DNA of 64,000 nucleotides from Styela clava (lineage: Eukaryota; Chordata; Ascidiacea; Stolidobranchia; Styelidae): assembly GCF_964204865.1 (NCBI RefSeq), contig NC_135257.1, positions 1,302,001 through 1,366,000 on the forward strand, written 5' to 3'. Positions 12,524 through 50,799 of this stretch are shown here, one piece after another; position 1 is the stretch's first letter; every line of letters begins with the position of its first letter. The notes beneath the pieces are model-generated. The model was not told where the DNA came from and ran no database searches. It saw nothing but the letters and a program-made list of their open reading frames with translations. The position numbers were made by a program, and so were the translations under genes.

Positions 12524-13142
12524 TCAGTCACCGTTATCATTTGGAGCCGACAAGCTCATTCGTTTTTGGCTTTGATCGTAAATAGAGGCGTAAGTTACTT
12601 TGCCTATGTCATCATACTCAGACAGGATAGGGGATTCGTAATTGTTTCCACTATGCGTTTTCGCATTAGAGTTGGAGCCGACAAGCTCATTCGCTTTTGG
12701 ATTTGATGTAGAGGCGTAAGTTACTACTTTGCCTATGTCATCATACTCAGACAGGATGTGGGGTTCGTAACTGTTTCCACTATGCGTTTTCGCATTGGAG
12801 TTGGAGCCGACAAGCTCATTCGCTTTTGGATTTGATGTAGAGTCGTAAGTTACTTTGCCTATGTCATCATACTCAGACAGGATAGGGGGTTCGTAATTGT
12901 TTCCACTATGCGTTTTCGCATTGGAGTTGGAGCCGACAAGCTCATTCGCTTTTGGCTCTGATGTAGAGGCAAAAGTTACTTCGCCTATGTCATCATACTC
13001 AGGCGAGATAGTGGGTTCGTAATTGTTTCCACTATGCGTTTTTGTCATTTGATTGAAAGTTCGGTCCCAATACTCACAAGAACCTACGAGTTCGTTATCT
13101 TTTTGCCTCTGTGTTAATTTAGGACCTTGTTCTCCGATGTCA
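12524..13142 (-). pseudogene. cut-off repeat tail of YDDI-receptor copy 1
   Basis: An open frame of about 205 codons follows the premature stop of copy 1 in another frame. It encodes five YDDIG motifs in 42-residue repeats (YDDIGKV, KANELVG, AKTHSG, NNYEPP) and ends in a C-terminus unlike that of copies 2-4. The break is a net 2-base deletion at CCTC-GTG compared with CCTCCCATG in copy 2. The long intact frame behind it suggests a recent event, an allele, or an assembly error. Confidence 0.8.
12600..13060 (-). repeat. 126-base coding tandem repeats, copy 1 tail
   Basis: GCCTATGTCATCATAC recurs at 12602, 12731, 12857 and 12983, a spacing of 129, 126 and 126 bases. Each unit is 42 codons and carries one YDDIG. 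The 129-base unit has one extra valine codon. Confidence 0.9.
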
Positions 13143-15362
13143 TCATACACGAGGCAACATAGGCAAGCTCATATCGTGCGCGTCATTCCTATTCATTGTT
13201 TTAAGGGGAGTTGACATACCTGAGCGTATTATCGGTGTCAGATATTGTTCAGAATCTAAGTTCATTCTTGGAGAAGGCGGTGTTTCTGGGTATATGTAAC
13301 TCGGTTCTGCGGCGACAACACTCGTAGTCGTAAACTCGCCTGGTATGTTAACCATATGATGTCTACTGTGTGGGTGTTGTATGGGCGATAGATACTGGCA
13401 TGAATCATTGGGTAGTGGGATGTGTGAAGGGTCGGCCGTATCAAAATGCATTGAAGAAGGATCACCCAGTGTTTGCGTTGTAATACTCCTGTTGTAAAAA
13501 CGCAAAGGGAACTTTTCTCTAAATTCATGCTGTCTTGGTTTTCTGAGAAAAAATTGAACAGTGATCAAAAAAAGTCAAGTGCGTTGGGTGTCAGCTAAGG
13601 CTAATCTCGTTAGGCTAAATTATGTTGACGTAGTAGATTAAATTATCGGGTTAGGTTAGAGCCTCATGCTCACCACGAAACTTAGGATGCTTTGCATTTG
13701 GTAATATATATGACGTAACCTACCTCTTTTTACTAGAAATACACACTCCTATCATAAACGCTATAACCACAAATGTTCCAACGGAACCCACAATTATCAG
13801 GATCAATTGTATGAACCCTGGCTCGGAATTCGGTTGTGTGGTAGCTCCGGAACGAGTAGTCGGATTGTTGTTTTCTGTGAAGACAAAAGTATTGAATAAT
13901 TAAAACTTGACAGAGTTCGGTGATTTCGTTGGAAATACGAGTCGCACCAGCAATAGTTTTAAACTATCACATCGTGCTATGTCATCGAGATTTAAATATA
14001 TATCGCCCATGCCGCCACCGTTGTATTTTTCAGATTTCTTTCAAAATTATTATGTGCCGCGATTCTTGAATTAATCTCATAATATTAATCGACACAAAGC
14101 GGTCAAATTGCGAAAATCTTCAATCCAAAACTACGCATATGGAACAAATCGAGTTGGCCAACCATTCTCATAAATGACCTGACCTAGTAAGCGTAGTTCG
14201 GATTAAATTTAACTGTTTTTTTTCTTTCATCTTCTCTGAATAAAATTGAAATTCAACTAGAGAATATCAAAAAAGTCATACCTGTCTTGCATCTACTGCA
14301 TTCGAACCCAAATAATGTCTTACCGAGGTCGTTTACCAAGTCCAAGGTCCATGACCCAAATTCAATCCATGGATTTGCACACCTGGCAACTAAATAAACG
14401 TATATCGACCTATTAATTTTTTTTATTGGACACGAAATGGACCTGTGAATCGTTTTTTTTTTATGTTGTTATGTCTTCTTCTTGTTGGCCTCCCTAACTA
14501 CTGGACCAATTGCTTTAAAATTTTCAGAATAAAGAATAAATTGTTGTTGACGCTTGAGGGCTATTACTTTTCATTTATTTCCTAACTTTTCTATGAAATT
14601 TAATACTTCATCCAAAATCTCGCTGTATTATTTTCATTCATGGGGACACGGTTTTTGACCAACCAAGCGTGACGGTTGTCTTCCAGTTTAATTTTGCGAA
14701 ATCGTGTGACGCGGAAGTCGGAGATTATTTGATACCGGTAGCACACGGTAGGTACGGTAAACTAAATCGTGTCCATATATTTGAGCATCGCTCTCACTCA
14801 AAACGTGGCCCCGAACTTATATTTAAACCTAGTATTGGCACTATAATGCAAAAAGATTTATTAATTTTCTTTCTTCTAACAAAGATATCAGTAGATAACG
14901 TTATACACGAAACAGTTCAATTTACATGGTACAATAGATGAGCCAAAGTCGATGAGTACGAGTCTCAAATTTAATATTTTTTAATTGTAGACGAGCTTGA
15001 TTAGGAGAAATTCTTCTACTCTACAACCCCACACTGATAACCTAAATGGGCGAAACCAAACACATTTTGATGTGTGAAGTTTTTAAAATTGAGTAAAATT
15101 TATTTTCAGTAGATTCCAGGATTTAGTCACTTCGAGTTCTATCTGTCATTTGGATATGAGTTGAATCACTTTCATATAAATCGATTCGTTCACTATAGTT
15201 ACTCGAGTTGAAATTAACCAAAATATACTAGAATATTGAAAAACGTATAATTCAAAACTAAATCAAGTAGTTCTCACAAGCCATAAGACAAAAACCAGTA
15301 AAAGGAAACATTAACCCACCTCCGATTAGACAGACAACTCCAATTACTTTAATGATCTCCAT
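13143..15362 (-). CDS. YDDI-receptor gene copy 1, tail truncated by frameshift, 233 aa
   Basis: Exons (read right to left): 15320-15362, 14282-14389, 13724-13874, 13143-13542. They sum to 702 bases, 234 codons with the stop. Exon 1 is a signal peptide (MEIIKVIGVVCLIG). Exon 2 gives the ectodomain with one shared Cys plus an extra CSRC pair found only in this copy. Exon 3 gives a Thr/Pro stalk and a single transmembrane helix (LILIIVGSVGTFVVI) followed by a basic stop-transfer SKKR. Exon 4 begins the cytoplasmic tail with the tyrosine motifs YLSP, YIYP and YLTP. A 2-base deletion then gives MLPRV and a TGA stop directly before the first YDDIG. The result is a membrane protein with a short tail. 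It could be a functional short form, a dead copy or an assembly error. No known family is recognised. Confidence 0.75.
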
Positions 15363-15399
15363 TGTTCTTACTTATTTCAAGCACAAAATTGTGTGAATT

Positions 15400-16620
15400 T
15401 TCTAGATTTTTCAAAGAATGGATTTAGCTTCAACTCGTCCAGCTACGTTTTACATTTATTACTAAATACATTCCGCATCCCAAGATGGTCTATGAGACTG
15501 CTGAACACAATCGGGTAAATACTAAACTAGATCACTTCCGACTGATCAAGTAAGGAGTACAGATGTGTTGTCCAAATAGGGAGTTGATCACATTGGTTAA
15601 TGCTCAAGTTTTCACCAGAGTTGGGACTATAACATTAAACAACAGAAAACGCAAGTTGATAGGCGCAATTTTCTAACAGAATCTTTTATTCTAGTTACGC
15701 ATGCTAAATTTTTCATGCATCAGATAAAATATTCCACTCAAAGTAAAATTTCAATATATATTCTGTATAGGGTTTTTCATATTTTCGTTTTGAACAAGAA
15801 AACACATGGAAATGCGTAACAGAGGATGGTTTGACTTGACGCGGAAAGTTTCATAAAATTTTATTTCATGCTGCAAAAAGTTTAGATGACGTCTACGTCC
15901 GGATGTGCCGACAGCAAGTTTACAACATTGCTGAGCGGACAAAAATGGTATAAGATAGCGAAGCTTTAAAAACAGACAATACTACGTGGATAGATATTGC
16001 GTCGAAAATTCTCTTTTTTCCTTCAGAATTTTATCCATATTTGATGCAAAACTTATACAAAAGATATGTCAGGATACGTAATAAATAGGCCACAAGTGTG
16101 ATTGCTGAATGTGAAACAAAAAATGGCTTGACTCATGATTCGGGTAAACCCGGCAACCTGAGCTGAACACCACACGCAATAGACATTGAATCCTCAAATG
16201 TTATAGATTCAGTCGTACAAAGTTTTGACACAGAATATAATCTAATTATAAAAAATACTTCTGCGCGGTGGAAATTGATTATTTCTATTTCTTTCATCTT
16301 CTCTTCTATACGGGGAATTAGATAATGTTTGTCGTTTTTGCGGGTATATTAGATTTAGATTTTCAGATTGCCTCAAATAGATCACTAACTGAATTGGTAA
16401 TCGCCAAATTAAATAAAAAAATACCGCGAATAACAAATGGACTGTAGAAAGTCAGAATATGTTGCCCACGAATTACTTATAATTACACGGCAGCAATTCA
16501 AGAATGGTTATTGAACGTTAATAGTGCGCATTCTGTCGCAATAATGAAGCAAATCAATATATTTTTGAAGTGGCTTCGGCTCGAAGCACTACTCCAGATC
16601 TATTGGAAATATGATAAAGG
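15400..16620. other. right spacer of unit 1, upstream of copy 1
   Basis: Close match to 50800-51790 in unit 4 and more distant match to 25660-26870 and 42030-43230. It should contain the copy 1 promoter. The open frames here are short and not shared between copies. Confidence 0.6.
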
Positions 16621-16624
16621 TTAT

Positions 16625-18180
16625 GTCAATATGGTTCCATTACATTTGAACCCACGTACATTTGAACCAACGACAATTGCACCTGCATACTATTGCAACT
16701 ATGGAATTTTTTTTTTGTTTTACGGATATTTGAACCCATACTAACCCTAACCCATGGGTTTTAGCACCCGCGGATATACACATATCCTATAGTACAGTAC
16801 TTTACTATACTCCTACTATACAGTACTTTATTAAATGTTTTTCAAGGTGTATTTTTTAAATATGATTTGAACAACACTTATATTTAAGAAAGTGTATAAT
16901 ATAAGAAAGTAGACCCCATCGCTTATCTCATATTGCCACAAGTATATGAAATGGTTTTCCATAATCATATGAGACAAGTTACTTGATGAAACTTTCCTTT
17001 TGAAATGAAATAGTAAACGTACGTCAATCTTGTTGAATCATATGATAAAATACAGGTTTAACAAAGGAGAACTTGATATTTTAAAAATTTTCACAATATA
17101 GGTTTTTCTATGTAAAAGAATCTCTGTTCTTATTTGTACATGTTGACAACTTAGTAAACGTCTTCGAATTTAAATAATCTCTTGCAGGATATTCACAAAT
17201 CGCAGAATAATACAAAAAAATAAAATTTCGAATCTACGCAATTCATTGATAATACTTTACTAGGCTGGTTCTCTTGTGGCTGTTCCTAACGAAGGTGGAG
17301 AAGAGAAAAAATACTAAAAACATGCAAATTTCATGCCTCCTAATTTATGCAAAACAATATCTTGGAATAGCCAATGACGTAGCATTTAGGAGATGGAAAA
17401 GACAAAACATATTAAATTACACTTCAAAGGACATACAAATGGCGGAAAAAGTTTATACACAGTGTTACAACCAATCAAGAAGTGATGTGAATGCACAAGT
17501 ATTTTCTTCCAAAATAACATGCACAAAATATCTGGGTTGACTATAGAAAAAAATTATCTGATATCAGAGCCTTCTTGGGGGATTAAATGTGGGGCTTTAT
17601 GTAAATAAGTACAGTAACCTAGTATGAGAATTATTTGAAGTTATAAACTGTACTTAAATTTATTACCATGCAGATAATGAGCAACTAAGTTAAAAAACAT
17701 GGTTTTACAAATATTATTGGCCCTCAGTTTACAAGGTTCACCGTATCGCTGCTTTTAAAATCAAAGCAGCCTTAGCTAGCTTTTTTGACGTAAAAAATAC
17801 GGTTTCAAATAAATTATTTTTAATTTTTTTTCACTTTTTTGTTGAAATCCCTCTCGCATCACCGCGAAACTATTACAAAACCGCCATCGCATCGCTTTAT
17901 CGCCAAGTTAGTACCTACATCAAAGTCATTGGCTTGGGCAATGTTTATCCGAGATATCAGAGATACGTTAGCTACGTAGGTTCAAAGTCCATGGTTGATG
18001 TGATGGGTGCGAGGTGATTGCTGGACCTCTTGCTGTCGCAGGGTGGTTAAAGCAACGACTTCCCGGTTACGACTTCCTTAACCAACCAGGCACGTGGACG
18101 CATTGTGCTACAGATTGAGAGGACGTGTACGGGCAAGTCATTGGTACCCGGGGTGTTCGAAAAGTGAATTCACAATAAAA
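16625..18180. other. sequence unique to unit 1 with ATTTGAACCCA motifs
   Basis: No gene seen. At 16645-16765 the motif ATTTGAACC occurs three times, close to CTAACCCTAACCC, which resembles two telomere-type hexamers. The rest is AT-rich with no open frame of note. Confidence 0.4.
18000..18140 (-). repeat. SINE-body fragment, reverse orientation
   Basis: The reverse complement reads TTAAGGAAGTCGTAACCGGG, then AACCACCCTGCG, then AGGTCCAGCAATC. It matches 56249-56315 (AACCACCCTACGGCG, AGTCCAGCAATC), so it belongs to the family also seen in intron 4 of the dehydrogenase gene. Confidence 0.4.
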
Positions 18181-18402
18181 GTTGATTAGACAAGTTTAAA
18201 AATCTATTTTTCTTGTTTTAACTTAAAACACTAACAAATGAAACAGCAATTTCAAACAAAACAAGTACGACAAACCTTAATTCAAGCAATTGTTTCAAAG
18301 CAACCATTTTTGGACATACAAATGTAAAATAATTCATCCAAAATGTTTGTATTATCACATTTCAAAATATCGTTTACCATTGCACCATCGATCGTAGTTT
18401 TT

Positions 18403-22500: not shown

Positions 22501-22797
22501 AATATTCTACTCGATATGCGTTAGGATTTGTTAAATCTCGAAAGTCCGACAAGTTAGCTAATGTTAGACATTTCGTAATGCCTATAGGACAGTTTGTTCC
22601 ACAAAGAAAATCCTCCGAATCTCACCATACAATTGTAATATATATATCTATACACTTCACACGCATTAACACACATATACAATACAAAATAAGAAAATGC
22701 TTCAACCAATGTTAATGAGATTTGTACCTCGCAAATTGTTGCAAATTTCTTTATCGAACTGTTTGTCCTTCTAAATACTTGACGCGCTTTATTACCG

Positions 22798-22803
22798 TTC
22801 ATA
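22798..22803 (-). terminator. poly(A) signal of YDDI-receptor copy 2
   Basis: AATAAAGCGCG on the minus strand about 180 bases past the stop. It is conserved in copies 3 and 4. Confidence 0.55.
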
Positions 22804-22983
22804 ATTATTGAACTGAGAGTTAGGTACTGCATGCGAGACAAAGTTCTCTCTCCATGAAATATATAAATATCTATCTCACATGATGAAAAACACACAATAC
22901 TCTTCGTTTCTCAAATATGCTATTTGACAACAAGCCCCATCGATTCGTCAGTCATCGTCATTATTGGAGTTGGAGCCGACAAG

Positions 22984-25624
22984 TTATTCGCTATTGGCTT
23001 TGATGTAGAGGCGTAAGTTACTTCCTTCGCCTATGTCATCATACTCAGACGGGATAGGGGGTTCGGAGTTGTTTCCACTATGCGTTTTCGCATTGGAGTT
23101 GGAGCCGACAAGCACATTCGCTTTTAGCTTTGATGTAGAGTCGTAGGTTAGTCCGCCTATGTCATCATACTCAGGCGGGATAGAGGGTTCGGAGTTGTTT
23201 CCACTATGCGTTTTCGCATTGGAGCTGGAGCCGACAAGCACATTCGCTTTTAGCTTTGATGTAGAGTCGTAGGTTACTTCGCCTATGTCATCATACTCAG
23301 GCGGGATAGGGGGTTCGGAATTGTTTCCACTATGCGTTATCGTCATTTGGTTGGAAGTTAGGTCCCAATACTCATCAGAACCTACGAGTTCGTTATCTTT
23401 ATGCCTCACTGTTGGTTTAGGACCTTGTACTCCGATGTCATCATACATGGGAGGCAACATAGGTGAGCTCATACCGTGCCCGGCATTCATATTCACTGTT
23501 TTATGGGCCAGACCTGAACGTATTATCGGTGGCAGATATTGTTCAGAATCTAAGTTCATTCTTGGAGAAGGCAGTGTTTCTGGGTATATGTAACTCGGTT
23601 CTGCGGTGGCAACACTCGTAGTCGTAAACTCGCCTGGTATGTTAACCATATGATGTCTACTGTGTGGGTGTTGTATAGGCGATAGATACTGGTATGAATC
23701 CTTGGGTAGTGGGATGTGTGAAAGGTCGGCCGTATCAAAATGCATTGAAGAAGGAACATGTAGAGTTCGCGGTGTAATACTCTTGTTGTAAAAACGCATA
23801 GGGAAACTTTCTCTAAATTCATGCTGTCTTGGTTTTCTGGGAAAAAATCGAACGGTGATTTAAAAAAAAAGTGCGTTGGGTGCTGTCAGCTTAGGCTAAA
23901 CTCGTTGGGCTAATTTATGTTGGCGTTGTAGATTAAATTATCGGGTTAGAGCCTCATACTCACAACCAAACCTGGGATACATTGAATTTTGTAATATATA
24001 TGACGTAGCCTACCTCATTTTACTATAAATACACACTCCTATCACAACCGCTATAACCACAAATGCTCCAACGGAACCGACAATTATCAGGATCAATTGA
24101 ATGGAGACTGGTTCTGAATTCGGTTGTATGGTAGTTGAAATTTCACGCCTCTTTTCGGGACGAGAAGTCGGCTTGTTGTTTTCTGCGAAGACAAAAGTAT
24201 TAAATATTTAATCTTGTTCAGTGCTTTCGTTGGAGATACGAGTCACACCAGGTATAGTTTCAAACTATCACATCGTGCTATGTCTTCGAGATTTACTTTT
24301 ATCGCCAATGCTGCTACCCTTGTATTTTCCAGATTTATTTTAGTGAAAAAATTGTGTGCCACGACTCTTGAATAAATCCAATAATTTTATTTGACACAAA
24401 TCGGTCAAATTGCGAAACTCTTCAATCCAAATCTACGCATATCGAACAAATCGAGTCGGCCAAGTATTTTCATGAAGGATCTAACTTCGTAAGCGTACTT
24501 TGGATTAACTGTTTTTTCTTCTTTCATCTTATTTGAATAAAATTGAAATTCAACTAGAAAATACCAAAAAAATCTTACCTAGCTTGATCCCAAATAATGC
24601 CTTACCGACGTCGTAACCCAAGTCCAAAATCCTTGACCCAATTTTATTCCATGGGTCTGCACACCTGGCAACTAAATAAACGTATATCGACCTATTATTT
24701 TTTTTTATTAGACACAAAGTAAAGCTATGGATCGTTTTGATATTATATTGTCATTCTTCTTCTTGTTGGCCTCCTTAACTACTGTACCAATTGCTTTGAA
24801 ATTTTCAGATTAAAGATTGTTGTTGTTGCTTGAGGGCTATTACTTTTCCTTTATTCCTAAATTTCCTATGAAATCTAATAGTTCATCCAAAATTTTGCAG
24901 TATTATTTTTTATTCATGTGGACGGGGTTTTTAACCCGCCAAGCGTGACTGCTGTCTTCCGTTTTAATTTTGCAAAATCATTTGCCGCAGAAGTGGTTAT
25001 TCGATACCGGTAGCACACGGTAGGTACGGTAAACTAGATGTTGTCCATATATTCGAGCATCGCTCTCTTGTTTCAACTCAAAACGAGTCTCCAAACTTAT
25101 ATTTAAATAGAGTATTGGCAGAAGAGTTTCAAGCAACCACCATAATGCAAAAAGATTTATTGATGTTTTTTCTTCTAACAAGGATATCAGTAGATACGTT
25201 ATACACGAAACAGTTCAATTTACATGGTAGATGACAAAGTCGATGAGTACACCCTGGACGAAGTTAATTAGTAGAAATTCTTTTACTCTACAACCTCACA
25301 CTGATAACCTTAATGGGTGAAACCAAACACCTACAGATACGTGGGTAAATTGAGTAGAATTTATTTTCAGTAGATTCCAGGGTTCAGTCACATCGAGTTC
25401 TATCTGTCATTTGGAAATGAGTTGAATCACTTTCATATAAATCGAATCGTGCACTATAGTGACTCGAATTACAAATTAACCGGAATATACTTGAATATTG
25501 AAAAACGTATAATTCAAAACCAAATCACGTAGTTTTCACAAGCCATAAAACAAAAGTCAGTAAAAGGCTACATTAACTCACCTTCGATTAGACAGACAAC
25601 TGCAATTACTTTAATGATCTTCAT
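22984..25624 (-). CDS. YDDI-receptor gene copy 2, intact, 385 aa
   Basis: Exons: 25582-25624, 24579-24671, 24014-24182, 22984-23836. They sum to 1158 bases, 386 codons with the TAA stop, all GT-AG, with splice phases identical to the other copies. Layout: signal peptide (MKIIKVIAVVCLIEG); ectodomain of about 30 residues with a single Cys (CADPWNKIG); stalk rich in Ser, Thr, Pro and Arg; one transmembrane helix (LILIIVGSVGAFVVIAVVIG); tail of about 285 residues. The tail has YLSP, YIYP and YLPP, then YWDL, and four YDDIG motifs, three of them in 42-residue repeats. Acidic YDDI resembles the pY-acidic-acidic-Ile motif bound by Src-type SH2 domains, and YxxP resembles Crk-type sites; that reading is inference. 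Likely a plasma-membrane receptor or adaptor. No homologue is recognised. Extra alternative exons in the 0.9 kb intron 1 cannot be excluded. Confidence 0.8.
23029..23330 (-). repeat. 126-base coding tandem repeats, copy 2 tail
   Basis: GCCTATGTCATCATACTC starts at 23029, 23155 and 23281, exactly 126 bases apart. Each unit encodes one PEYDDIG or SEYDDIG followed by TYDSTSKLKANVLVG and AKTHSGNNSEP. In the last unit a 4-base difference from copy 1 changes the frame and gives the C-terminus NLRLYIKANSE. Confidence 0.9.
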
Positions 25625-25659
25625 TGTTGTTACTTATTTAAGGCACAGAATTTTTTGTG

Positions 25660-27365
25660 TGAATTATCTAAATTTTTGAAGAATAAAGTTAGCTTCAACT
25701 CGTCCAACTACATTTTACATTTAATACTAAATACATTCCGCATCCCATGATGGTCTAGCTAGGAGACTGCTGAACACAATTGGGTAAATATTGAACTATA
25801 TCACTTCCGTCTGATCAAGTAAGGAACACAGATGTGTTGTCCAAATAAGAAGTTGATCACAATGGTTAATGCTCAAGTTTTCATAAAAGTAAAGACTATA
25901 ACATTGAATAACAGAAAACGCAAATTGATAGGCGCAATATTTCCAACAGAATCTTTCATTCTAGTTACGCATGCTGAATTTTTGATGCATCAGATAAAAT
26001 ATTCCACCGAAGGTAAAATTCCAATATATTTGTATGGGGTGTTTTCGTTCTGATCAGGAAAACAAACGGAAATACAAAACGGAGGATGGTTTGACTTGAC
26101 GCGGAAAGTTCCATAGTCTACTGGAATATTTTATCTGATGCTGCAAAAATTTTAGCTCTCGTCTCAATCCGGATGCGCTGACAGCAAGTTTATAACATTC
26201 CTGAGCGGACAAAATGTGTATAACATCGCGAAACTTTAAAAGTAGACAACACTAATCGGTTACATATTGTGTGAATAATCAGGCCACAAGTGTGATTGCT
26301 GCTTGTAGTACAAAAAATGGCTTGACTCATGATTCGGGTAAACCCGGCAACCTGAGTTTCACAGCACAAGGAATGTTTTGCACAAACTGTTTCGTCTGAA
26401 TGGACATTGAATCCTCAAGTGTTATAGGTTCAGCCGTACAACGTTGCAATACAGAATAGAATACATTCATAAATAATTTGAAAATACATATACGGTGTAA
26501 AAAAAAAAGTTGGTTATTGGGCAACACTTTTATAACTACTTATTCACCTTTCGTTCTGCAGGGGGTGGAGATTCGCTGATAGGCTATATTAGATTTGGAT
26601 TCAAGATTGCCTCGAATCGATCTCTAATTGAATTGGTGACACATAAAAAATTTGAGTTTAAAATGCGAATAACAAATGGAAAGTAAAAAGTCAGTTTATG
26701 TGGCCCACGAATTAACCATAATTCCATGGCAGCAACTCAAGATTGGATATTGAACGTCATTGAAAAAGTGCGCATTCTGTGGCAATTATGCAAGCAATCA
26801 GTATTTTTGTGAAGCGGCGTCAAACTCGAATTTACACTTTTCTACAGATCTATTAAAAATAAGATGCAATTTTTGTCACAAATATTTAATGCGCGATTCC
26901 CAACAAGATTTAATTGAAGTACTTCCGCAGTGATTGTCACCTGTTATGTAGATGTAGACGGTAGAACTTTGGATCATCGTTATCATTGCCTTAAAGTTCA
27001 GAACTGAGTTCAATCCACGTTTCCACCTCGCTGCTAATGTATTCATATATTTCGTATCACTTTGTGGGTTAAATTGCTGGGTTGAAATGGAACAGCGATT
27101 TGTCATTAGTAGTTTATTTAAACTCTCTTGAAGGTTTGAACTTACGCGAAAGCGGAACCGCCACAAGGAACACAATTTTCAATATTGTGACTTCACCGCA
27201 CACAAAAGCGGATCTCACAAAAGCCGGAAGTTTTAAAAAAAATATAAGTAATATCCTTCTAACAAAAACTACAATCTTTACCACCAAAAGTTTCAAAGCA
27301 TTGGTTCAGTACAGTTAGTAAGTGATTTTTTAATACCAACAAGAAGAAAAAAATACCAACTAGAA
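25660..27365. other. right spacer of unit 2
   Basis: Closely matches 42030-43739 in unit 3. It should contain the copy 2 promoter. A 99-codon minus frame at 26876-27175 recurs at 43249-43548, but changes between the two are mostly replacements, so coding is doubtful. Confidence 0.5.
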
Positions 27366-28476: not shown

Positions 28477-28484
28477 AACTAGAA

Positions 28485-32427: not shown

Positions 32428-32646
32428 TCAAGCAATTGTTTCAAAGCAACCACTTTTGGACATACAAATGTAAAATAATTCATCCAAAATGTTTGTATTA
32501 TCACATTTCAAAATATCGTTTACCATTGCACCATCGATCGTAGTTTTTTCATTCATATTACGTGTCCCATGTTCATTCAAGCCCAGACAATACCTGCTTA
32601 GAATCAAATGACAACTGAAAACAAAACGCACGGTAAGTGTACTCAT
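32428..32646 (-). CDS. small 72-codon frame at the 5' end of the mini-exon gene, copy 2
   Basis: Begins MSTLTVRFVFSCHLILSRYC, a weakly hydrophobic start that could be a signal peptide, and continues with Cys-containing ILKCD, FYICMSK and GCF. The frame is shared with copy 3 until its deletion and with copy 4, which has TTG in place of the ATG; copy 1 is frameshifted. A GCTCTCAG or GCTTTCAG acceptor-like sequence lies 8 bases upstream of the ATG in all copies, and a TATA-like box about 220 bases upstream. An internal GTATGT donor before CMSK is an alternative end. It could be the first exon of the gene ending at 30189 or a separate small secreted protein. Confidence 0.35.
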   Translation of the reverse strand: MSTLTVRFVFSCHLILSRYCLGLNEHGTRNMNEKTTIDGAMVNDILKCDNTNILDELFYICMSKSGCFETIA

Positions 32647-32866
32647 TTCCTTTTCTGAGAGCGTTTGTAAATCCCCCCAGTGATCATCATACGATATTAG
32701 AAATTTCTAATTACTGCGCCTCATTATCAAATCATATTCAGGGCGACGAGCGCAAATGAATTTCAATGACATTTTTGTTCCAAATTTCTTGGTTCCAATG
32801 ATTTAAAACTTTGAAGAAAACATGAACATGATACATGAACAACGAAATTGAGCCAAAGCATCGCAT

Positions 32867-33512: not shown

Positions 33513-33543
<31 letters not shown>

Positions 33544-38614: not shown

Positions 38615-39594
38615 CCTGTGTCTTGCTGAGTGGTAAAATTATCGATTGTCAAACCAGATACCATCAGACAATGAAATCACCGTCACTCCTGTTTCAAGTC
38701 TTACTTACATGTGCTACTCCAGCGATGTGTGTATATTTGAAACAGAAAACCATAAATTTTGATTTGCGAGTGCCGCGACAGATAAAAACTGTATTTTAGA
38801 CGTTGTTAATCAAATTTAACAAATTACCAAGCTCAGAAAAATGCGAATCAATTTTAATTATAATCGGGCAGTATAATATATATTTTTATAAACGCAGATT
38901 GCAGTATTTCAGAGCAATAATATTTTTATTTTGTTGTAAGTAGGCGCAACGGCGAGTTACGTTGGAAATAATTAAATTAGTATGACAAATTCTTGTCAAT
39001 ACTCGTATCGGCCATGGACTGACTATTCTGCGCAACAAACAAATCATCATCGCTGAAAAAATCGGCAATTTTAACGAAAGTCCTAATCGCGAGCGAGAAC
39101 TGTTTTGATCGGAATTTCCATTTCCGATTTTGAATATGGAATATAATTTACTGAAAATATAGTGCAAGTTATCTGGCATTTTTGACGAAGTATAACTGTT
39201 AATTCTTTTGTTTTTAACATCTTATTTGGTAGAAACGGGGTCATCAAATCAAAGAATGATAATGATTTGAGATTGTACCTGACTAAATTTCTTCAAATAT
39301 TAAATATCAAATATTCTACTCAACATGCGTTGGGATTTGTTAAATCTCGAGAGTCCGACAAGTTAGCTAATGTTAGACATTTCGTAATGCTTATAGGACA
39401 GTTTGTTCCACAAAGAAAATCCTCCGAATCTCACCATACGATTTTATTATATATTTCTATACACTTCACACGCATTAACACACATATCATACAAAATAAC
39501 ATAATTCTTTAACCAATGTTAATGAGATTTGTACATCGCAAATTGTTGCAAATTTCTTTATCGAACTGTTTGTCCTTCTAAATACTTGACGCGC

Positions 39595-39600
39595 TTTATT
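39595..39600 (-). terminator. poly(A) signal of YDDI-receptor copy 3
   Basis: AATAAAGCGCG on the minus strand, at the same relative position as in copies 2 and 4. Confidence 0.55.
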
Positions 39601-39790
39601 ACCGTTCATAATTATTGAACTGAGAGTTAGGTACTGCATGCGAGACAAAGTTCTCTCTCCATGAAATATATAAATATCTATCTCACATGATGAAAAACAC
39701 ACATTACTCTTCGTTTCTCAAATATGCTATTTGACAACAAGCCCCAGCGATTCGTCAGTCATCGTCATTATTGGAGTTGGAGCCGACAAG

Positions 39791-41994
39791 TTATTCGCTA
39801 TTGGCTTTGATGTAGAGGCGTAAGTTACTTCCTTCGCCTATGTCATCATACTCAGACGGGATAGGGGGTTCGGAATTGTTTCCACTATGCGTTTTCGCAT
39901 TGGAGTTGGAGCCGACAAGAACATTCGCTTTTAGCTTTGATGTAGAGTCGTAGGTTACTTCGCCTATGTCATCATACTCAGGCGGGATAGGGGGTTCGGA
40001 ATTGTTTCCACAATGCGTTATCGTCATTTGGTTGGAAGTTAGGTCCCAATACTCATCAGAACCTACGAGTTCGTTATCTTTTTGCCTCAGTGTTGATTTA
40101 GGACCTTGTTCTCTGATGTCATCATACATTGGAGGCAACATAGGCGAGCTCATACCGTGCCCGCCATTCATATTCACTGTTTTATGGGATGATGCCAGAC
40201 CTGAACGTATTATCGGTGCCAGATATTGTTCAGAATCTAAGTTCATTCTTGGAGAAGGCAGTGTTTCTGGGTATATGTAACTCGGTTCTGCGGTGGCAAC
40301 ACTCGTAGTCGTAAACTCGGCTGGTATGTTAACCATATGATGTCTACTGTGTGGGTGTGGTATGGGCGATAGATACTGGTATGAATCCTTGGGTAGTGGG
40401 ATGTGTGAAAGGTCGGCCGTATCAAAATGCATTGAAGAAGGAACATCCAGTGTTCGCGGTGTATTACTCCTGTTGTGAAAACGCATAGGGAAACTTTCTC
40501 TAAATTCATGCTGTCTTGGTTTTCTGAGAAAAAATCGAACGGTGATTTAAAAAAGAAAAGTGCGTTGGGTGCTGTCAGCTAAGGCTAAACTCGTTGGGCT
40601 AATTTATGTTGGCGTTGTAGATTGAATTATCGGATTAGAGCCTCATACTCACAACCAAACCTGGGATACATTGAATTTGGTAATATACATGACGTAGCCT
40701 ACCTCATTTTACTATAAATACACACTCCTATCACAACCGATATAACCACAAATGCCCCAACGGAACCGACAATTATCAGGATCAATTGGATGGAGACTGG
40801 TTCGGAATTCGGTTGTATGGTAGTTGAAATTTCACGCCCCTTTTCGGGACGAGTAGTCGGCTTGTTGTTTTCTGCGAAGACAAAAGTATTAAATATTTAA
40901 TCTTGTTCAGTGATTTCGTTGGAGATACGAGTCACACCAGCAATAGTTTCAAACTATCACATCGTGCTATGTCATCGAGATTTACTTTTATCGCCAATGC
41001 TGCTACCCTTGTATTTTCCAGATTTCTTTTAGTAAAAAAATTGTGTGCCACGACTCTTGAATAAATCCAATAATTTTAATAGGCACAAATCGGTCAAATT
41101 GCGAAACTCTTCAATCCAAATCTACGCATATCGAACAAATCGAGTCGGCCAAGTATTTTCATAAAGGATCTAACCTCGTAAGCGTAGTTCGGATGAACTA
41201 ACTGTTTTTTCTTCTTTCATCTTCTTTGAATAAAATTGAATTTCAACTAGAGAATACCAGAAAAATCTTACCTGGCTTGATCCCAAGTATTGTCTTACCA
41301 ACGTCGTAACCCCAGTCTAAAGTCCTTGACAAAAATTCAATCCCTGGGTCTGCACACCTGGCAACTAAATAATCGTACATCGACCTATTATTTTTTTATT
41401 GGACACAAAGTAGACCTATGGATCGTTTTGTTATTATATTGTCATTCTTCTTCTTGTTGGCCTCCTTAACTACTGGACCAATTGCTTTGAAATTTTCAGA
41501 ATGAAGATCGTTGTTGTTGCTTGAGGGCTATTACGGGGTTTTTAACCCGCCAAGCGTGACGGCTGTCTTCCGTTTTAATTTTGCAAAATCATTTGACGCG
41601 GAAGTGGTTATTCGATACCGGTAGCTCACGGTAGGTACGGTAAACTAGATGTCTCCAAACTTATATTTAAACAGAGTATTGGCAGAAGAGTTTCAAGCAC
41701 CTAGAGATACGTAGGTAAATTGAGTAAAATTTATTTTCCGTAGATTCCAGGGTTTAGTCACATCGAGTTCTATCCGTTATTTGGAAATGAGTTGAATCAC
41801 TTTTATATAAATCGATTCGTGCACTATAGTGAATCGAGTTACAAATTAACCGGAATGAACTTGAATATTGAAAAACGTATAATTCAAAACCAAATCATGT
41901 AATCTTCACAAGCCATAAAACAAAAGTCAGTAAAAGGATACATCAACTCACCTCCGATTAGACAGACAACTCCAATTACTTTAATGATCTTCAT
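39791..41994 (-). CDS. YDDI-receptor gene copy 3, intact, 345 aa
   Basis: Exons: 41952-41994, 41272-41364, 40703-40871, 39791-40523. They sum to 1038 bases, 346 codons with the TAA stop. Same plan as copy 2: signal peptide (MKIIKVIGVVCLIG), ectodomain with one Cys, stalk, transmembrane helix, tail with YLSP, YIYP, YLAP, YWDL and three YDDI motifs, so one 42-residue repeat fewer than copy 2. One motif reads YDDIR instead of YDDIG. Relative to copy 2, the ectodomain exon has 11 replacement codons against 2 silent ones, while the transmembrane exon has about 3 and 3. Intron 1 is about 300 bases shorter than in copy 2, which argues against a required extra exon there. Confidence 0.8.
39836..40010 (-). 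repeat. 126-base coding tandem repeats, copy 3 tail
   Basis: GCCTATGTCATCATACTC starts at 39836 and 39962, 126 bases apart. This is the shortest array of the four copies. Confidence 0.85.
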
Positions 41995-42029
41995 TGTTGT
42001 TACTTATTTAAAGCACAGAATTTTTTGTG

Positions 42030-43739
42030 TCAATTATCTAAATTTTTTGAAGAATAAATTTAGCTTCAACTCGTCCAACTACGTTTTACATTTAATACTA
42101 AATACATTCCGCATCCCCTGATGGTCTAGCTAGGAGACTGCTGAACACAATTGGGTAAATACTGAACTATATAACTTCCGTCTGATCAAGTAAGGAACAC
42201 AGATGTGTTGTCCAAATAAGAAGTTGATCACATTGGTGAATGCTCAAATTTTCATAAAAGTAAAGACTATAACATTAAACAACAGAAAACGCAAATTGAT
42301 AGGCGCAATATTTTTAACAGAATCTTTCATTCTAGTTACGCATGCTGAATTTTTGATGCATCAGATAAAATATTCCACCGAAGGTAAAATTCCAATATTT
42401 TGTATGGAGTGTTTTCGTTCTGATCAGGAAAACAAACGGAAATACAAAACGGAGGATGGTTTGACTTGACGCGGAAAGTTCAATAGTCTACTGGAAAATT
42501 GTATCTGATGCTGCAAAAATTTTAGCTCTCGTCTCAATCCGGATGCGCTGACAGCAAGTTTATAACTTTCCTGAGCGGACAAAATGTGTATAATATCGCG
42601 AAACTTTAAAAGTAGACAACACTAATCGGTTACATATTGTGTGAATAATCAGGCCACAAGTGTGATTGCTGCTTGTAGTACAAAAAATTGCCTGACTCAT
42701 GATTCGGGTAAACCCGGCAATCTGAGTTTCACAGCACAAGCAATGTTTTGCACAAACTGTTTCGTCTGAATGGACATTGAATCCTCAAGTGTTATAGGTT
42801 CAGCCGTATAACGTTGCAATACAGAATAGAATACATTCATAAATAATTTGAAAATACATATACGGTGTAAAAAAACAAAGTTGGTTATTGGGCAACACTT
42901 TTATAACTACTTATTCACCTTTCGTTCTGCAGGGGGTGGAGATTCGCTAATAGGCTATATTAGATTTGGATTCCAGATTGCCTCGAATCGATCTCTAATT
43001 GAATTGGTGACACATAAAAAAAATTGAGTTTAAAATGCGAATAACAAATGGGAAGTAAGAGGTCAGAATATGTTGCCCACGAATTAACCATGATTCCATG
43101 GCAGCAACTCAAGATTGGTTATTGAACGTCATTAAAAAAGTGCGCATTCTGTGGCAATTATGCAAGCAATCAGTATTTTTGTGAAGCGGCGTCAAACTCG
43201 AATTTACACTTTTCTACAGATCTATTAAAAATATGATGAAATTTTTTGTCACAAATATTTAATGCGCGATTCCCAACAAGATTTAATTGAAGTACTTCCG
43301 CAGTGACTGTCACCTGTTATGTAGATGTAGACTGTAGAACTTTGAATCATCGTTATCATTGCCTTAAAGTTCAGAACTGAGTTCAATCCACGATTCCACC
43401 TCGCTGCTAATGTATTCATATATTTCGTATCACTTTGTGGGTTAAATTTCTGGGTTGAAATGGAACAGCGATTTGTCATTAGTAGTTTATTTAAATTCTC
43501 TTGAAGGTTTGAACTTACGCGAAAGCGGAACCGCCACAAGGAACACAATTTTCAATATTGTGACTTAACCGCACACAAAACCGGATCTCACAAAAGCCGG
43601 AATTTTTGAAAAAAATATAAGTAATATCCTTCTAACGAAAACCACAATCTTTAACCACCAAAAGTTTCAAAGCATTGGTTCAGTACAGTTAGTAAGTGAT
43701 TTTTTAATACCAACAAGAAGAAAAAAATACCAATTAGAA
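42030..43739. other. right spacer of unit 3
   Basis: Near-identical to 25660-27365 in unit 2. No separate gene is supported. Confidence 0.55.
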
Positions 43740-44090
43740 CAGAGGTGTCAAACTTGCGGCCCACGGGTTGCATGCGACCCCAGAGAACTTCCAATGCGGC
43801 CCGCGAACACTTGACAATAATTGTGTTATTTTGTAATTTTATTTTATCTAAATGTAATACATTTTTTTACATCTTTCGAAGAAGTAAAATTGATTATTCA
43901 CACAAAAAACGACAATTTACTGAAAGTATTTTGGAAAATTAAAATTTCTTGTTTTCAATTTGGACCAGATATGGATACACCTCAAAGCTAGCAAAAGAAT
44001 ACATGTGAAACACCTCAGGAATTAAATGAAGCGCAAAGTACATGAAGAAGGTGGCATTTTTGAAGAAAAATGGGAGTTGCAATATTTCTG
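43740..44090. mobile_element. 3'-truncated hAT copy in unit 3
   Basis: Starts CAGAGGTGTCAAACTTGCGG like the complete element at 27366 and follows it for about 350 bases, then stops at AATATTTCTG and continues directly in the mini-exon gene. The right TIR and second target duplication are gone. The insertion therefore predates the duplication of units 2 and 3, and a deletion followed. Confidence 0.85.
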
Positions 44091-44241
44091 TCACATCACA
44101 TTTCAAAATATCGTTTACCATTGCACCATCGATCGTAGTTTTTTCATTTATATCACGTGTCCCGTGTTCATTCAAGTCCAGACAATACCTGCTTAGAATC
44201 AAATGACAACTGAAAACAAAACGCACAGTAAGTGTACTCAT
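44091..44241 (-). pseudogene. mini-exon gene copy 3, 5' fragment fused to hAT sequence
   Basis: Keeps the first 51 codons (MSTLTVRFVF to ILKCD) and then runs into inverted hAT sequence, giving an accidental 100-codon fusion frame ending at 43939. All later exons are deleted. Confidence 0.6.
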
Positions 44242-47200
44242 TTCCTTTTCTGAAAGCGTTTGTAAATCCCACAGTGATCATCATACGATATTAGAAATTT
44301 CCAATTACTGCGCCTCATTATCAAATCATAATCACGGCGACGAGTGCAAATGAATTTCAATGACATTTTTGTTCCAAATTTCATGGTTCAAATCATAAAA
44401 CTTTGAAGTACACATGGACATGATACATGTACAACGAAATTGAGCCAAGGCATCGCGTTTTATATCCTAGGTGTTAACGATGAATATACGAACGGATATA
44501 TAATTGATAAAACACTATTTAGATAAATACAACATCCAACACAGGGGTGACGAACCTATTTGCTATCGCAAACGAACAACAACAAGTTTATATATAAAAG
44601 TTTTAAAATAAATTTAATTTAATTAATTGTGTGTCAAAATACTGGCGCTTCCATTTTCTCTGTACATTCCCTGAAGGTTTTTGACTTCACACCAAATATA
44701 CACTGAATCGCATGAATGCTTTGCGGGTCGCACGAAATCTTCGGTGGATTCTTTGGGGCTCCGTGAGATGTTTAATAAAATTTGACAACGTTAGCATCGA
44801 AATGCGGTAATTAAAACACGACATGATCTATATCAAAGTGTTGTGTTGTTGCGAGGTTGACGGGTTGCCATAGCTTTTGGGAATGTCTCGCGGGTCGCAG
44901 TCGGATAAAACCCAAAATTGATCAAAATATCGCGAGTTTACTTATTTTAAAAATCAAGAACACTATTTACGAATTCCGGGCATCATTGTGCGGGAAGGAT
45001 GTCTGATCTGGACAGTTGTTTGGCTGTTTGACGCATTATATTGAGAAATCTGAAGACATACTTGCGAGTGTACGCAGCTTAGGTACGGTAGATAATTTAT
45101 GTGAAAGGTTGCCGGGCTCCTTACTATTGTTATGTCTATTACGCATTTGACCACTGAAGACATACCTGCGGATGAAAACAGATCACGTATAGATAATATA
45201 TATATGTGAGAGATTGTTTGACTCCTCACTATTGTTATATATGAGTCCACTTCAAAGAAAAATAAAATATTTGAACAGTATATCATTTGATAGCAATTTT
45301 TCAACGTTGAATACTCGACGCAAGAGCCTTTCCATTGAACTGACTGGATTCATTATGTGTGATGCTTCAGATTACCCTTTCTGTTGAAACTAGAAAATAA
45401 GTATTTTATTGAGACTGACTCGCGGCCGGCAAAAATATTTTAAAAAAGTTCTTTGTAAAACTCCCTGTAAATCAATATTTATGACTTATATAATTGAATT
45501 ACCAATAAATTCAAACAAGCGATACAGCAGATGGATGGTATTTGCTTGCATACAATATTCGTATAGCGACATGATGCGCAAAAGGTGAAGTTTTATAAAG
45601 ATTCCCAATAGGCGGAGTGTATCGATAATAGGATTTTATGAAAACCAACTAAAGAAAGATTCTAAATTTTTTCAGTCTGTGACGCACTAAAAATAATATA
45701 CTGATACTGATATAATAATAACTGATAACGGAACAAAGTATTCAAACAATTTAATTTGGATTTATTGCGATGAATTTGCCCACTGTTGAGAGTAAATAAG
45801 ATTGAAATTATGTTGTCAATTCCAATATGTCTTTCCTATTTTTTGCGATGTGTAACTTCCATAATGCAGAATACCCTATTGCAAAAACCACGAAGATGCA
45901 AATGACATTATTTTGATGGCCTTGAATACAGCATTGAATTAGATTTGTAAGCAGAAAGTCAAAAATCTCTCATCTTTGAGAAACTCAATGCTTGGTTTGT
46001 AAAATTCTCTTCCACGAAGACTGCAACTATTGAAAGCGCTTTATACACTCGTACTCGTACATTCGTATTACCACATGTTCCTAACGTTCCACTCGTATCA
46101 TTTTTGAATTGCTAGTGCCACGTGTTTTACTTTGTTCCACTTGTATCATTTGTCTCAAGCGTCCAACACCACACACAATTGGATCAAATTTGGGAGAAAT
46201 AGGACTGGGACATGGTATGTGCTTGGCTTCGTGCAGCTTTTTAACACGGAGTGACGTTTTCGGCTTCAGGAAACCCTGTGTCTTGCTGAGTGGTAAAATT
46301 ATCGATTGTCAAACCAGATACCATCAGACAATGAAATCACCGTCACTCCTGTTTCAAGTCTTACTTACATGTGCTACTCCAGCGATTCTCAAAGTGGGCG
46401 AAAGAGATAAAGTAGGGGGCGAAAAATGCGAAGGGGTGACAGTGGGGCGATTGCTTATTCTCGAATAGTCAAATATGGTGAAAATCGCCGAATGTTTTCT
46501 TCGGTATGACGTGGATATTTAGGCCATGAACATCGGGATTATATCGGTAACCCATATTTTCGTAAATTCTCCCTATCTCACAAGTATTCCCCTGCACATG
46601 TGCCAGAGGACGTCGATAAAGAGTTTTTTCAACGCCCGGAACTGTGCGTGAAGTATGATACAACCTCAGGATTGAATACGCAAATCCAATTTCCACTGAA
46701 AATTGAGGAAGTGAATATTAAGAATTAAAAGCGGTGTCATAATATAACTGGAAAACCATAAATTTTGATTCTCGAATGCCGCGACAGATATAAACTGTAT
46801 TTTACACGTTGTTAAATCGCAAAATTTCGGAATTTTTGATCGTAAACTATACCATAGTCACCTGAAGTTGATTCATTCCATTATCCATTATTAAACTACC
46901 GCCGGATCCGAAAACGACCTCTTTCCTTATTGTGATGATAATGCAATAATGTAAAATTTTATTGTCGACCTTGGGATTTTGCTAACGGCGTATTTTTGAA
47001 AATAACCGTGGGCGGATCAAATTTAACAAATTTCCAAGATCGGAAAAATGCGAATCAATTCTAATTATAATCGGGCAGTATACCATATATTTTTATAAAC
47101 GCAGATTGCAGTATTTCAGAGCAATAATATTTTTATTTTATTGTAAGTAGGCGCAATGGCGAGTTACGTTGAGAATATTTAAATTAGTATGACAAATTCT

Positions 47201-47791
47201 TGTTAATACTCGTATCGGCCATGGACTGACTATTCTGCGCATCAAACAAATCATCATCGCTGAAAAAATCGGCAATTTTAACGAAAGTCCTAATCGCGAG
47301 CGAGGACTGTTTTGATCGGAATTTCCATTTCCGATTTGGAATATGGAAATGTAATTTACTGAAAATATAGTGCAAGTTATCTGGCATTTTTGACGAAGTA
47401 TAACTGTTAATTCTTTTGTTTTTAACATCTTATTTGGTAGAAAAGGGGTCAGCAAATCAAAGAATGATAATGATTTGAGATTGTACCTGACAAATAATAA
47501 ATACCAAATATTCTACTCAACATTCGTTGGGATTTGTTAAATCTCGAGAGTCCGACAAGTTAGCTAATGTTAGACATTTCGTAATGCTTATAGGACAGTT
47601 TGTTCCACAAAGAAAATCCTCCGAATCTCACCATACGATTTTATTATATATTTCTATACACTTCACACGCATTAACACACATATCATACAAAATAACATA
47701 ATGCTTCAACCAATGTTAATGAGATTTGTACATCGCAAATTGCTGCAAATTTCTTTATCGAACTGTTTGTCTTTCTAAATAGTTGACGCGC

Positions 47792-47797
47792 TTTATT
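47792..47797 (-). terminator. poly(A) signal of YDDI-receptor copy 4
   Basis: AATAAAGCGCG on the minus strand, at the conserved position. Confidence 0.55.
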
Positions 47798-47987
47798 ACC
47801 GTTCATAATTATTGAACTGAGACTTAGGTACTGCATGCGAGACAAAGTTCTCTCTCCATGAAATATATAAATATCTATCTCACATGATGAAAAACACACA
47901 TTACTTTTCGTTTCTCATATTTGCTATTTGACAACAAACCCCAGCGATTCGTCAGTCATCGCCATCATTGGAGTTGGAGCCGACAAG

Positions 47988-48545
47988 TTATTTGCTATTG
48001 GCTTTGATGTAGAGGCGTAAGTTACTTCCTTTGCCTATGTCATCATACTCAGGCGGGATGGGGGGTTCGGAGTTGTTTCCACTATGCGTTTTCGCATTGG
48101 AGTTGGAGCCGATAAGAACATTCGCTTTTAGCTTTGATGTAGAGTCGTAGGTTACTCCGCCTATGTCACCATACTCAGGCGAGATAGAGGCGACAAGCAC
48201 ATTCGCTTTTAGCTTTGATGTAGAGTCGTAGGTTACTCCGCCTATGTCATCATACTCAGGCGAGATAGAGGCGACAAGCACATTCGCTTTTAGCTTTGAT
48301 GTAGAATCGTAGGTTACTCCGCCTATGTCATCATACTCAGGCGAGATAGAGGCGACAAGCACATTCGCTTTTAGATTTGATGTAGAGTCGTAGGTTACTT
48401 CGCCTATGTCATCATACTCAGGCGGGATAGGGGGTTCGGAATTGTTTCCACTATGCGTTATCGTCATTTGGTTGGAAGTTAGGTCCCAATACTCATCAGA
48501 ACCTACGAGGTCGTTATCTTTTTGCCTCACTGTTGGTTTAGGACC
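47988..48545 (-). pseudogene. cut-off repeat tail of YDDI-receptor copy 4
   Basis: Same frame as the upstream exon, separated from it only by a TAA at 48546-48548 where copies 1, 2 and 3 have CAA. It stays open for about 186 codons to the usual terminal ANSK. It encodes four YDDIG and one YGDIG. Read-through would give a 426-residue protein. Confidence 0.8.
48033..48430 (-). repeat. mixed 126- and 81-base coding repeats, copy 4 tail
   Basis: GCCTATGTCA(T/C)CATACTC starts at 48033, 48159, 48240, 48321 and 48402, a spacing of 126, 81, 81 and 81 bases. The 27-codon units lack 15 codons (the AKTHSG part) and read LVASISPEYDDIGG. The shortened unit was then multiplied. Confidence 0.9.
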
Positions 48546-50763
48546 TTATTCTCCGATGTCATCATACATGGGAGGCAACATAGGTGAGCTCATACCGTGC
48601 CCGCCATTCATATTCACTGTTTTATGGGATGATGCCAGACCTGAACGTATTATCGGTGGCAGATATTGTTCAGAATCTAAGTTCATTCTTGGAGAAGGCA
48701 GTGTTTCTGGGTATATGTAACTCGGTTCTGCGGCGGCAACACTCGTAGTCGTAAACTCGTCTGGTATGTTAACCATATGATGTCTACTGTGTGGGTGTTG
48801 TATGGACGATAGATACTGGTATGAATCCTTGGGTAGTGGGATGTGTGAAAGGTCGGCCGTATCAAAATGCATTGAAGAAGTTACATGTAGTGTTCGCGGT
48901 GTAATACTCTTGTTGTAAAAACGCATAGAGAAACTTTCTCTAAATTCATGCTGTCTTGGTTTTCTGAGAAAAAATCGAACGGTGATTTAAAAAAGAAAAG
49001 TGCGTTGGGTGCTGTCAGCTTAGGCTAAACTCGTTGGGCTAATTTATGTTGGCGTTGTAGATTAAATTATCGGGTTGGAGCCTCATACTCACAACCAAAC
49101 CTGGGATACATTGCATTTTGTAATATATATGACGTAGCCTACCCCATTTTACTATAAATACACACTCCTATCATAACCGCTATAACCACAAATGCTCCAA
49201 CGGAACCGACAATTATCAGGATCAATTGAATGGAGACTGGTTCTGAATTCGGTTGTATGGTAGTTGAAATTTCACGCCTCTTTTCGGGACGAGAAGTCGG
49301 CTTGTTGTTTTCTGCGAAGACAAAAGTAGTAAATATTTAATCTTGTTCAGTGCTTTTGTTGGAGATACGAGTCACACCAGCTATAGTTTCAAACTATCAC
49401 ATCGTGCTATGTCATCGAGATTTACTTTTATCGCCAATGCTGCTACCCTTGTATTTTCCAGATTTCTTTTGTGTGCCACGACTCTTGAATAAATCCAATA
49501 ATTTTAATCGACACAAATCGGTCAAATTGCGAAACTCTTCAATCCAAATCTACGCATATCGAACAAATCGAGTCGGCCAAGTATTTTCATGAAGGATCTG
49601 ACTTCGTAAGCGTAGTTCGGGTTACCTGTTTTTTCTTCTTTCATCTTATTTGAATAAAATTGAAATTCAACTAGAAAATACCAAAAAAATCTTACCTAGC
49701 TTGATCCCAAATAATGCCTTACCGACGTCGTAACCCAAGTCCAAAATCCTTGACCCAATTTTATTCCATGGGTCTGCACACCTGGCAACTAAATAAACGT
49801 ATATCGACCTATTATTTTTTTTTATTGGACACAAAGTAAACCTATGGATCGTTTTGTTATTATTTTGTCATTCTTCTTCTTGTTAGCCTCCTTAATTACT
49901 GGACCAATTGCTTTGAAATTTTCAGATTATAGATTGTTGTTGTTGCTTGAGGGCTATTACTTTCATTTATTCCTAAATTTCCTATGAAATCTAATAGTAC
50001 ATCAAAAATTTCGCTGTATTATTTTTTATTCATGGGGACGGGGTTTTTAACCCGCCAAGCGTGACGGCTGTCTTCCGTTTTAATTTTGCAAAATCATTTG
50101 ACGCGGAAGTGGTTATTCGATACCGGTAGCACACGTTAGGTACGGTAAACTAGATGTTGTCCACATATTCGAGCATCGCTCTCTTGTTTCAACACAAAAC
50201 GAGTCTCCAAACTTATATTTAAACAGAGTATTGGCAGAAGAGTTCCAAGCAACCACCATAATGCAAAAATATTTATTGATGTTTTTCTTCTAACAAGGAT
50301 ATCAGTAGATACGTTATACACGAAACAGTTCAATTTACATGGTAGATGACAAAGTCGATGAGTACGAGTCTCAAATTTAATATTTCGTAACTCTGGACGA
50401 ACTTGATTAGTAGAAATTCTTCTACTCTACAACCCCACACTTATAACCTTAATGGGTAAAACCAAACACCTACAGATACGTGGGTAAATTGAGTAAAATT
50501 TATTTTCAGTAGATTCCAGGATTTAGTCACATCGAGTTCTATCCGTCATTTGGAAATGAGTTGAATCACTTTCATATAAATCGATTTATGCACTATAGTG
50601 ACTCGAGTTACAAATTAACCGGAATGAACTTGAATATTGAAAAACGTATAATTCAAAACCAAATCATGTAGTCTTCACAAGCCATAAAACAAAAGTCAGT
50701 AAAAGGATACAGCAACTCACCTCCGATTAGACAGACAACTCCAATTACTTTAATGAACTCCAT
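48546..50763 (-). CDS. YDDI-receptor gene copy 4, tail truncated by a nonsense codon, 240 aa
   Basis: Exons: 50721-50763, 49696-49788, 49143-49311, 48546-48963. They sum to 723 bases, 241 codons with the stop. Signal peptide MEFIKVIGVVCLIG, one Cys in the ectodomain, transmembrane helix as in copy 2, tail with YLSS, YIYP, YLPP and a single YDDIGE followed at once by TAA. Exon 2 is base-for-base identical to copy 2 (93 bases), while the sequence from the start codon upstream follows copy 1. The copy is therefore a mosaic. As in copy 1, the product would be a membrane protein without the repeat tail. Confidence 0.75.
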
Positions 50764-50799
50764 TGTTCTTACTTATTTCAAGCACAAAATTGTGTGAAC

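Follow-up and report, generated by a model that had tools for sequence, protein, structure and literature searches.

Vertebrate TRAPs (LAT, PAG/Cbp, LIME, NTAL, LAX, SIT and TRIM) are described as proteins in which a short extracellular part and a single transmembrane helix are followed by a long tail bearing several tyrosine sites (PMC2803307). The same layout is predicted for the products of a tandem family of four homologous genes, here called copies A to D, on the minus strand of a 64,000-nucleotide stretch of contig NC_135257.1 (the window, in which positions are counted from its first letter). From exon structure and motifs, the copies are proposed to form a family of small type I single-pass phosphotyrosine scaffolds with a TRAP-like layout and a fast-changing ectodomain, a reading to which we give a probability of about 0.55. 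In the predicted proteins, 54-55 residues lie between the Cys after the signal region and the start of the transmembrane segment, which is long for a TRAP ectodomain. The array proteins also differ from TRAPs in their N-terminal signal-type stretch, tandem YDDIG repeats, multiple copies and changing ectodomain. The juxtamembrane CxxC palmitoylation motif of LAT, LIME, NTAL and PAG is absent from them, a single Cys being present at the inner end of the transmembrane segment (residue 95 or 96), and LAX, SIT and TRIM are likewise described as having no palmitoylation sites (PMC2803307). The original prediction had recognised no described family with this plan, a claim that does not hold for the layout, which is that of the published description of TRAPs. 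This likeness is to the description of the group and not to individual TRAP sequences one by one. Since neither homology nor a CxxC motif was found, the family is not filed as TRAP; that it works like one is the leading hypothesis.

CD6 is a receptor with a large SRCR ectodomain, and ADAP is a cytosolic protein. The SH2 domain of SLP-76 has been reported to bind a long CD6 peptide ending in NDDpYDDISAA and phosphorylated at Y662, with a dissociation constant of 0.3-2 µM (PMC5440646). A central pYDDV of ADAP has been reported to pull down SLP-76, NCK1/2, PLCG1, PIK3R1, RasGAP, CRK and GADS, and the same partners are stated for Y771DDI of ADAP as data not shown (PMC2908683). The array proteins resemble CD6 in having a receptor tail with a YDDI docking site, as at Y662 (PMC5440646), and ADAP/FYB in carrying repeated YDD[V/I] sites (PMC2908683). 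They differ from CD6 in having three or four such motifs and no Pfam-known extracellular domain, whereas the adaptor ADAP has hSH3 domains but lacks a transmembrane helix. The fester co-receptors (FcoR) of Botryllus are described as type I transmembrane proteins that belong to a variable cluster and have long tails containing tyrosine motifs, although they are 520-610 residues long and have Ig and sushi domains (PMC12065747). Literature text searches gave no description of the present family among the matches listed, as judged from titles and abstract openings.

Four gene copies and their tails

Nucleotide self-comparison of the window delimits units A (12066-16162), B (22502-26272), C (39311-43251) and D (47508-51563), all on the minus strand, whose main blocks are about 82-96% identical and which are embedded in larger segmental duplications. 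No further significant copy was found in the window by tblastn. Four-way alignment and exon extraction place the start codons at 15362, 25624, 41994 and 50763, respectively. As originally predicted, all four copies share the same four exons and phases (1, 1 and 2), with GT at 12 of 12 donors and AG at 12 of 12 acceptors; the introns are 587-932, 384-407 and 177-181 nucleotides long. The predicted extent of the family, 12524 to 50763, ends exactly at the start codon of copy D, while its lower limit is the end of an out-of-frame open reading frame (ORF) of copy A, past a lesion described below.

Exon 1 is 43 nucleotides long in every copy (A, 15320-15362; B, 25582-25624; C, 41952-41994; D, 50721-50763) and holds the start codon and a hydrophobic stretch, the putative signal peptide. 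Exon 2 encodes an ectodomain part of about 31 residues and is 93 nucleotides long in B (24579-24671), C (41272-41364) and D (49696-49788); in A (14282-14389) it has 15 more (108 nucleotides), with two extra Cys. The stalk and transmembrane helix are encoded by exon 3, which has 169 nucleotides in B (24014-24182), C (40703-40871) and D (49143-49311) and 151 in A (13724-13874), where the stalk is 18 nucleotides shorter. By hydropathy only, each of the four proteins shows an N-terminal peak and a single internal transmembrane segment (peak 2.8-3.2), the core of which has no charged residue. Exon 4 encodes the tail.

Copies B and C are intact and predict proteins of 385 and 345 residues. The tail of B (exon 4, 22984-23836) is 283 residues long with 14 Tyr, and includes four YDDI and three YxxP motifs. 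That of C (39791-40523) is 243 residues long with 11 Tyr, and includes three YxxP and three YDDI, with R after the first YDDI. The YxxP motifs of both are YLSP, YIYP and either YLPP or YLAP, and their YDDI motifs are spaced 42-50 residues apart. The 15 bases TATGATGACATAGGC are identical in 13 of the 14 repeat units, the exception being a YGDI in the unreadable part of D. At the first YDDI of each copy, Ile is written ATC and not ATA, followed by GGA or, in C, by AGA, and Y-D-D-I has thus been kept across a synonymous change. A 4-nucleotide difference lies near the C-terminus (12524-12616 compared with 22984-23043): B and C end in EGSNLRLYIKANSE, unlike A, in which YASIYDQ follows the last YDDI, and the open remainder of D ends like B and C.

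Lesions and coding signal

The tails of A and D are interrupted. In copy A, the frame is shifted by a 2-nucleotide deletion just 5' of the first YDDI, and translation stops at 13143, directly after MLPRV. The in-frame part of exon 4 (13143-13542) contains YLSP, YIYP and YLTP, giving a protein of 233 residues with a tail of 132 residues and 5 Tyr; the remainder (12524-13168) is out of frame, is still open over 214 residues and contains five YDDI. In copy D, a TAA stands two codons past the first YDDI, after YDDIGE, so that the in-frame part (48546-48963) ends at 48546 with YIYP, YLPP and one YDDI; the protein has 240 residues and its tail 138, with 7 Tyr. Past this stop, a frame of 185 residues with 81-nucleotide repeats, four YDDI and one YGDI remains open (47988-48545). 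Because the frames past both lesions are still open, the two losses seem recent, or they could be errors of the assembly, and A and D are proposed to be truncated or dying copies. The statement that the codon sums of all copies close exactly is therefore wrong. The predicted three to six YDDI per tail are obtained only when the lesions are ignored, the readable frames of A, B, C and D containing 0, 4, 3 and 1, and of the four receptors described, two (A and D) are truncated in this assembly.

The coding signal of the copies exceeds chance. The tail ORF of B (284 residues) was reached in none of 1000 dinucleotide shuffles; the part up to the second YDDI was reached once in 1000 for B (186 residues) and never in 1000 for C (188 residues). 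Of the seven longest stop-to-stop ORFs in the window, six belong to these copies. Ahead of the first YDDI, the coding sequence has gaps of 15, 18 and 6 nucleotides, all multiples of three, as are the tail repeat periods of 126 and 81 nucleotides, and only 4 of the 19 intron indels between A and B are multiples of three, a single 1-nucleotide exon gap in that comparison being a trimmed alignment end.

Conserved tail block and fast ectodomain exon

An average over the whole protein hides two opposite regions, a conserved tail block and an accelerated ectodomain exon. The tail block HPHSR...SYIYPE...EQYLxP...RSG, which contains two of the three YxxP motifs, differs between A and B at 5, between A and C at 6 and between A and D at 5 of 159 sites, or 3-4% against 13% in the introns (Fisher test, p 5.6e-5, 2.2e-4 and 1.3e-4, respectively). 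In the block preceding HPHSR, which contains YLSP, A differs from each other copy at 4 of 81 sites (p 0.026-0.036). These are two of eight segments compared, and most of the others are near the intron rate.

Exon 2 changes in the opposite direction. Between C and B, and likewise between C and D, 14 of 93 sites (15%) are different, against intron differences of 56 of 1160 (4.8%, p 3.5e-4) and 46 of 1150 (4.0%, p 6.5e-5), respectively, with the reservation that exon 2 was picked for testing post hoc, once the data had been seen. Twelve of the 14 changes are nonsynonymous. With A as outgroup, 8 fall on the branch of C (6 nonsynonymous) and 6 on the branch of B and D (6 nonsynonymous). Exon 2 is identical in B and D, the introns of which are 4.3% apart (p 0.03). 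This identity suggests conversion, and it makes the comparisons of C with B and with D in effect one comparison.

In the sequence upstream of exon 1, the pairings are A with D (2.8%) and B with C (3.3%), whereas the gene bodies group B, C and D. The array is thus a recombination mosaic, and a crossover or conversion point near exon 1 is suggested by the position of this switch. Flanking sequence of a fifth duplicated unit, which matches the flank blocks beside B, C and D, lies at 57157-62088, the homology being interrupted for about 1 kb at 60757-61816. No gene copy was found up to the window end at 64000; with such flanks present from 57157, the array may run past the window. In the duplicated flanks, an ORF containing LQTLSEKE and SCHLILSRYC is repeated on the minus strand at 32428-32706, 43939-44277 and 58135-58413, and is a candidate gene or mobile-element remnant. 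On the plus strand, an intron-split aldehyde dehydrogenase gene is found at about 1203-9760, with matches to Pfam Aldedh in two frames (E 1.6e-78 and 8.1e-12). The PDB matches of one of its exons are aldehyde dehydrogenases, 2-aminomuconic 6-semialdehyde dehydrogenase being among the best, and the gene is presumably of the ALDH8A1 type. The CpG observed/expected ratio is 1.02 over the whole window, with no CpG depletion; together with the introns of the aldehyde dehydrogenase gene, this is no more than a hint of an invertebrate animal.

Phosphotyrosine docking and its alternatives

Src-type SH2 domains prefer pYEEI, and Crk/Nck-type SH2 domains prefer pYxxP. A Src-type domain had been put forward for YDDI on the grounds of its documented preference; the closer published ligands are the pYDDI and pYDDV sites of CD6 and ADAP (PMC5440646, PMC2908683). 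The description of TRAPs fits the layout, and B and C are therefore read as TRAP-like scaffolds or receptors. For these two copies the motifs are best read as a predicted tail with several phosphotyrosine docking sites behind a tiny ectodomain, as originally proposed for the whole family. The ectodomain might contact a fast-evolving ligand or partner chain, and clustering would then lead to phosphorylation of the tail by Src/Syk-type kinases. The pYDDI sites would recruit SH2 adaptors of the CD6/ADAP set (SLP-76-type, Nck, PLC-gamma and PI3K) and the pYxxP sites Crk/Nck-type SH2 domains, while repeat number might tune docking valency. SLP-76 is reported to be absent in ascidians (PMC12065747), so that, if the animal is an ascidian, partners of the Nck, PLC-gamma or Crk type are likelier.

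Several observations weigh against such scaffolds, and some would fit a decaying array, in which the duplicates of a once functional gene drift neutrally and at most one or two copies are useful. Two of the four copies are broken, and D is also without one YxxP motif (YLSP). For the coding sequence up to the first YDDI, the ratio of nonsynonymous to synonymous substitution rates (dN/dS) is 1.22 for A-B, 1.51 for A-C, 1.48 for A-D, 0.78 for B-C, 0.93 for B-D and 1.19 for C-D. As these values are near or above 1, no purifying selection can be seen across the full protein, and amino-acid change is not under the neutral expectation. In simulations, drift alone leaves a stop-free frame with a probability of 0.07-0.10, and the stop-free test by itself is therefore weak support. 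When the 2-nucleotide deletion of A is counted, three of four coding gaps are multiples of three, and the 4-nucleotide difference near the C-terminus also stands outside the coding indel count. Exon 2 of A differs from the others by 17-19% against 13% in the introns, a difference short of significance (p 0.11-0.27), and conversion from a paralogue not seen here could produce part of the exon 2 signal. Both conserved tail blocks are also low in synonymous change, so the constraint need not be on the protein alone. Finally, no homologue appeared in the Pfam, PDB, viral, bacterial or archaeal libraries searched. Pfam gave only matches below the family cut-offs for six tail ORFs, phmmer found no PDB match for the B tail up to E 1, and Rfam gave 0 matches. 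Relatives of the B tail were sought in viral_contigs (1 pattern match, 0 confirmed) and genome_contigs (20, 0 confirmed), libraries of viral, bacterial and archaeal sequence from which nothing follows for animals. The disabled copies, the dN/dS of about 1 and a drift probability too high to dismiss would all suit decay. Against it stand the multiple-of-three indels through most of the coding part, the conserved tail block, the retained splice sites, the intact state of B and C, and an exon 2 that changes faster than the introns, and decay is considered unlikely.

The motifs themselves admit other readings. The YDDI motifs might be YxxPhi sorting signals, with the tail binding clathrin adaptor complexes and the protein serving as an endocytic or lysosomal cargo receptor, since every YDDI, together with YSKM, YQYL and YWDL in B and C, matches Yxx[ILVMF], and repetition would raise avidity. 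One sorting signal is usually enough for endocytosis, however, and the conserved block of YxxP motifs is no such signal; SH2 ligands with acidic residues at +1 and +2 are, moreover, documented (PMC5440646, PMC2908683), which leaves sorting quite unlikely. A signalling or co-receptor chain resembling those with an immunoreceptor tyrosine-based inhibitory or activation motif (ITIM or ITAM), pairing with a separate ligand-binding receptor, is more doubtful still. FcRgamma and DAP12 pair in this way, and the tiny ectodomain would suit such a chain, as would the ITIM pattern [SIVL]xYxx[ILV], found as one ITIM-like SEYDDI each in B and C and not in frame in A or D. The uncharged transmembrane core argues against it, and so does the YDDI spacing. 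An ITAM consists of paired YxxL/I motifs 6-12 residues apart, and a plain ITAM reading was rejected because the YDDI motifs of B and C are 42-50 residues apart. The tails of Botryllus FcoR are nevertheless reported to contain ITIMs, hemITAMs and Y-x-x-I/L/V cores (PMC12065747). It is hardly probable that these four exons form only the 3' portion of a larger receptor gene with ligand-binding exons further upstream, although diversifying receptors would not usually have an ectodomain exon of only 31 residues. All four copies have an ATG and a hydrophobic stretch in exon 1 itself, and a Pfam scan reading through stops (E 0.01) found no hidden ectodomain exon, Ig, sushi and SRCR domains included, in the three minus-strand frames of 12001-41999 and 49000-63999, a scan that can miss short exons and leaves minus-strand 1-12000 and 42000-48999 outside. 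The same method detected the Aldedh exons as a positive control in two plus-strand frames of 1-15000, and on that strand one frame of 49000-63999 was also scanned. Least probable of all is a switch in which PPEYDDI and PPMYDDI bind WW-domain proteins until tyrosine phosphorylation swaps these for SH2 partners. PPxY is bound by Nedd4-type WW domains, and it overlaps YDDI in frame three times in B, twice in C and once in D, but it is missing at the last YDDI of B and C, at all four repeat-unit sites of A and at three of five in D.

A more specific form of the scaffold reading can be entertained tentatively, as rather unlikely: the family might be an invertebrate functional counterpart of LAT/CD6, a membrane scaffold in which an SH2-adaptor signalosome assembles on the tandem YDDI and YxxP sites, selection diversifies the tiny ectodomain, as in self/non-self or pathogen recognition, and docking valency is altered by repeat expansion. 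LAT, which serves lymphocyte signalling as its membrane scaffold, is described as not found in amphioxus, where an as yet unknown membrane recruiter has been suggested (PMC5431462), and is reported to be missing in ascidians (PMC12065747). Should expression and binding fail, the locus would be an ordinary decaying tandem array. If the scaffold reading is true, the family would show how LAT-like scaffolds can arise, and it would provide a simple system for testing how the number of docking sites relates to signal strength.

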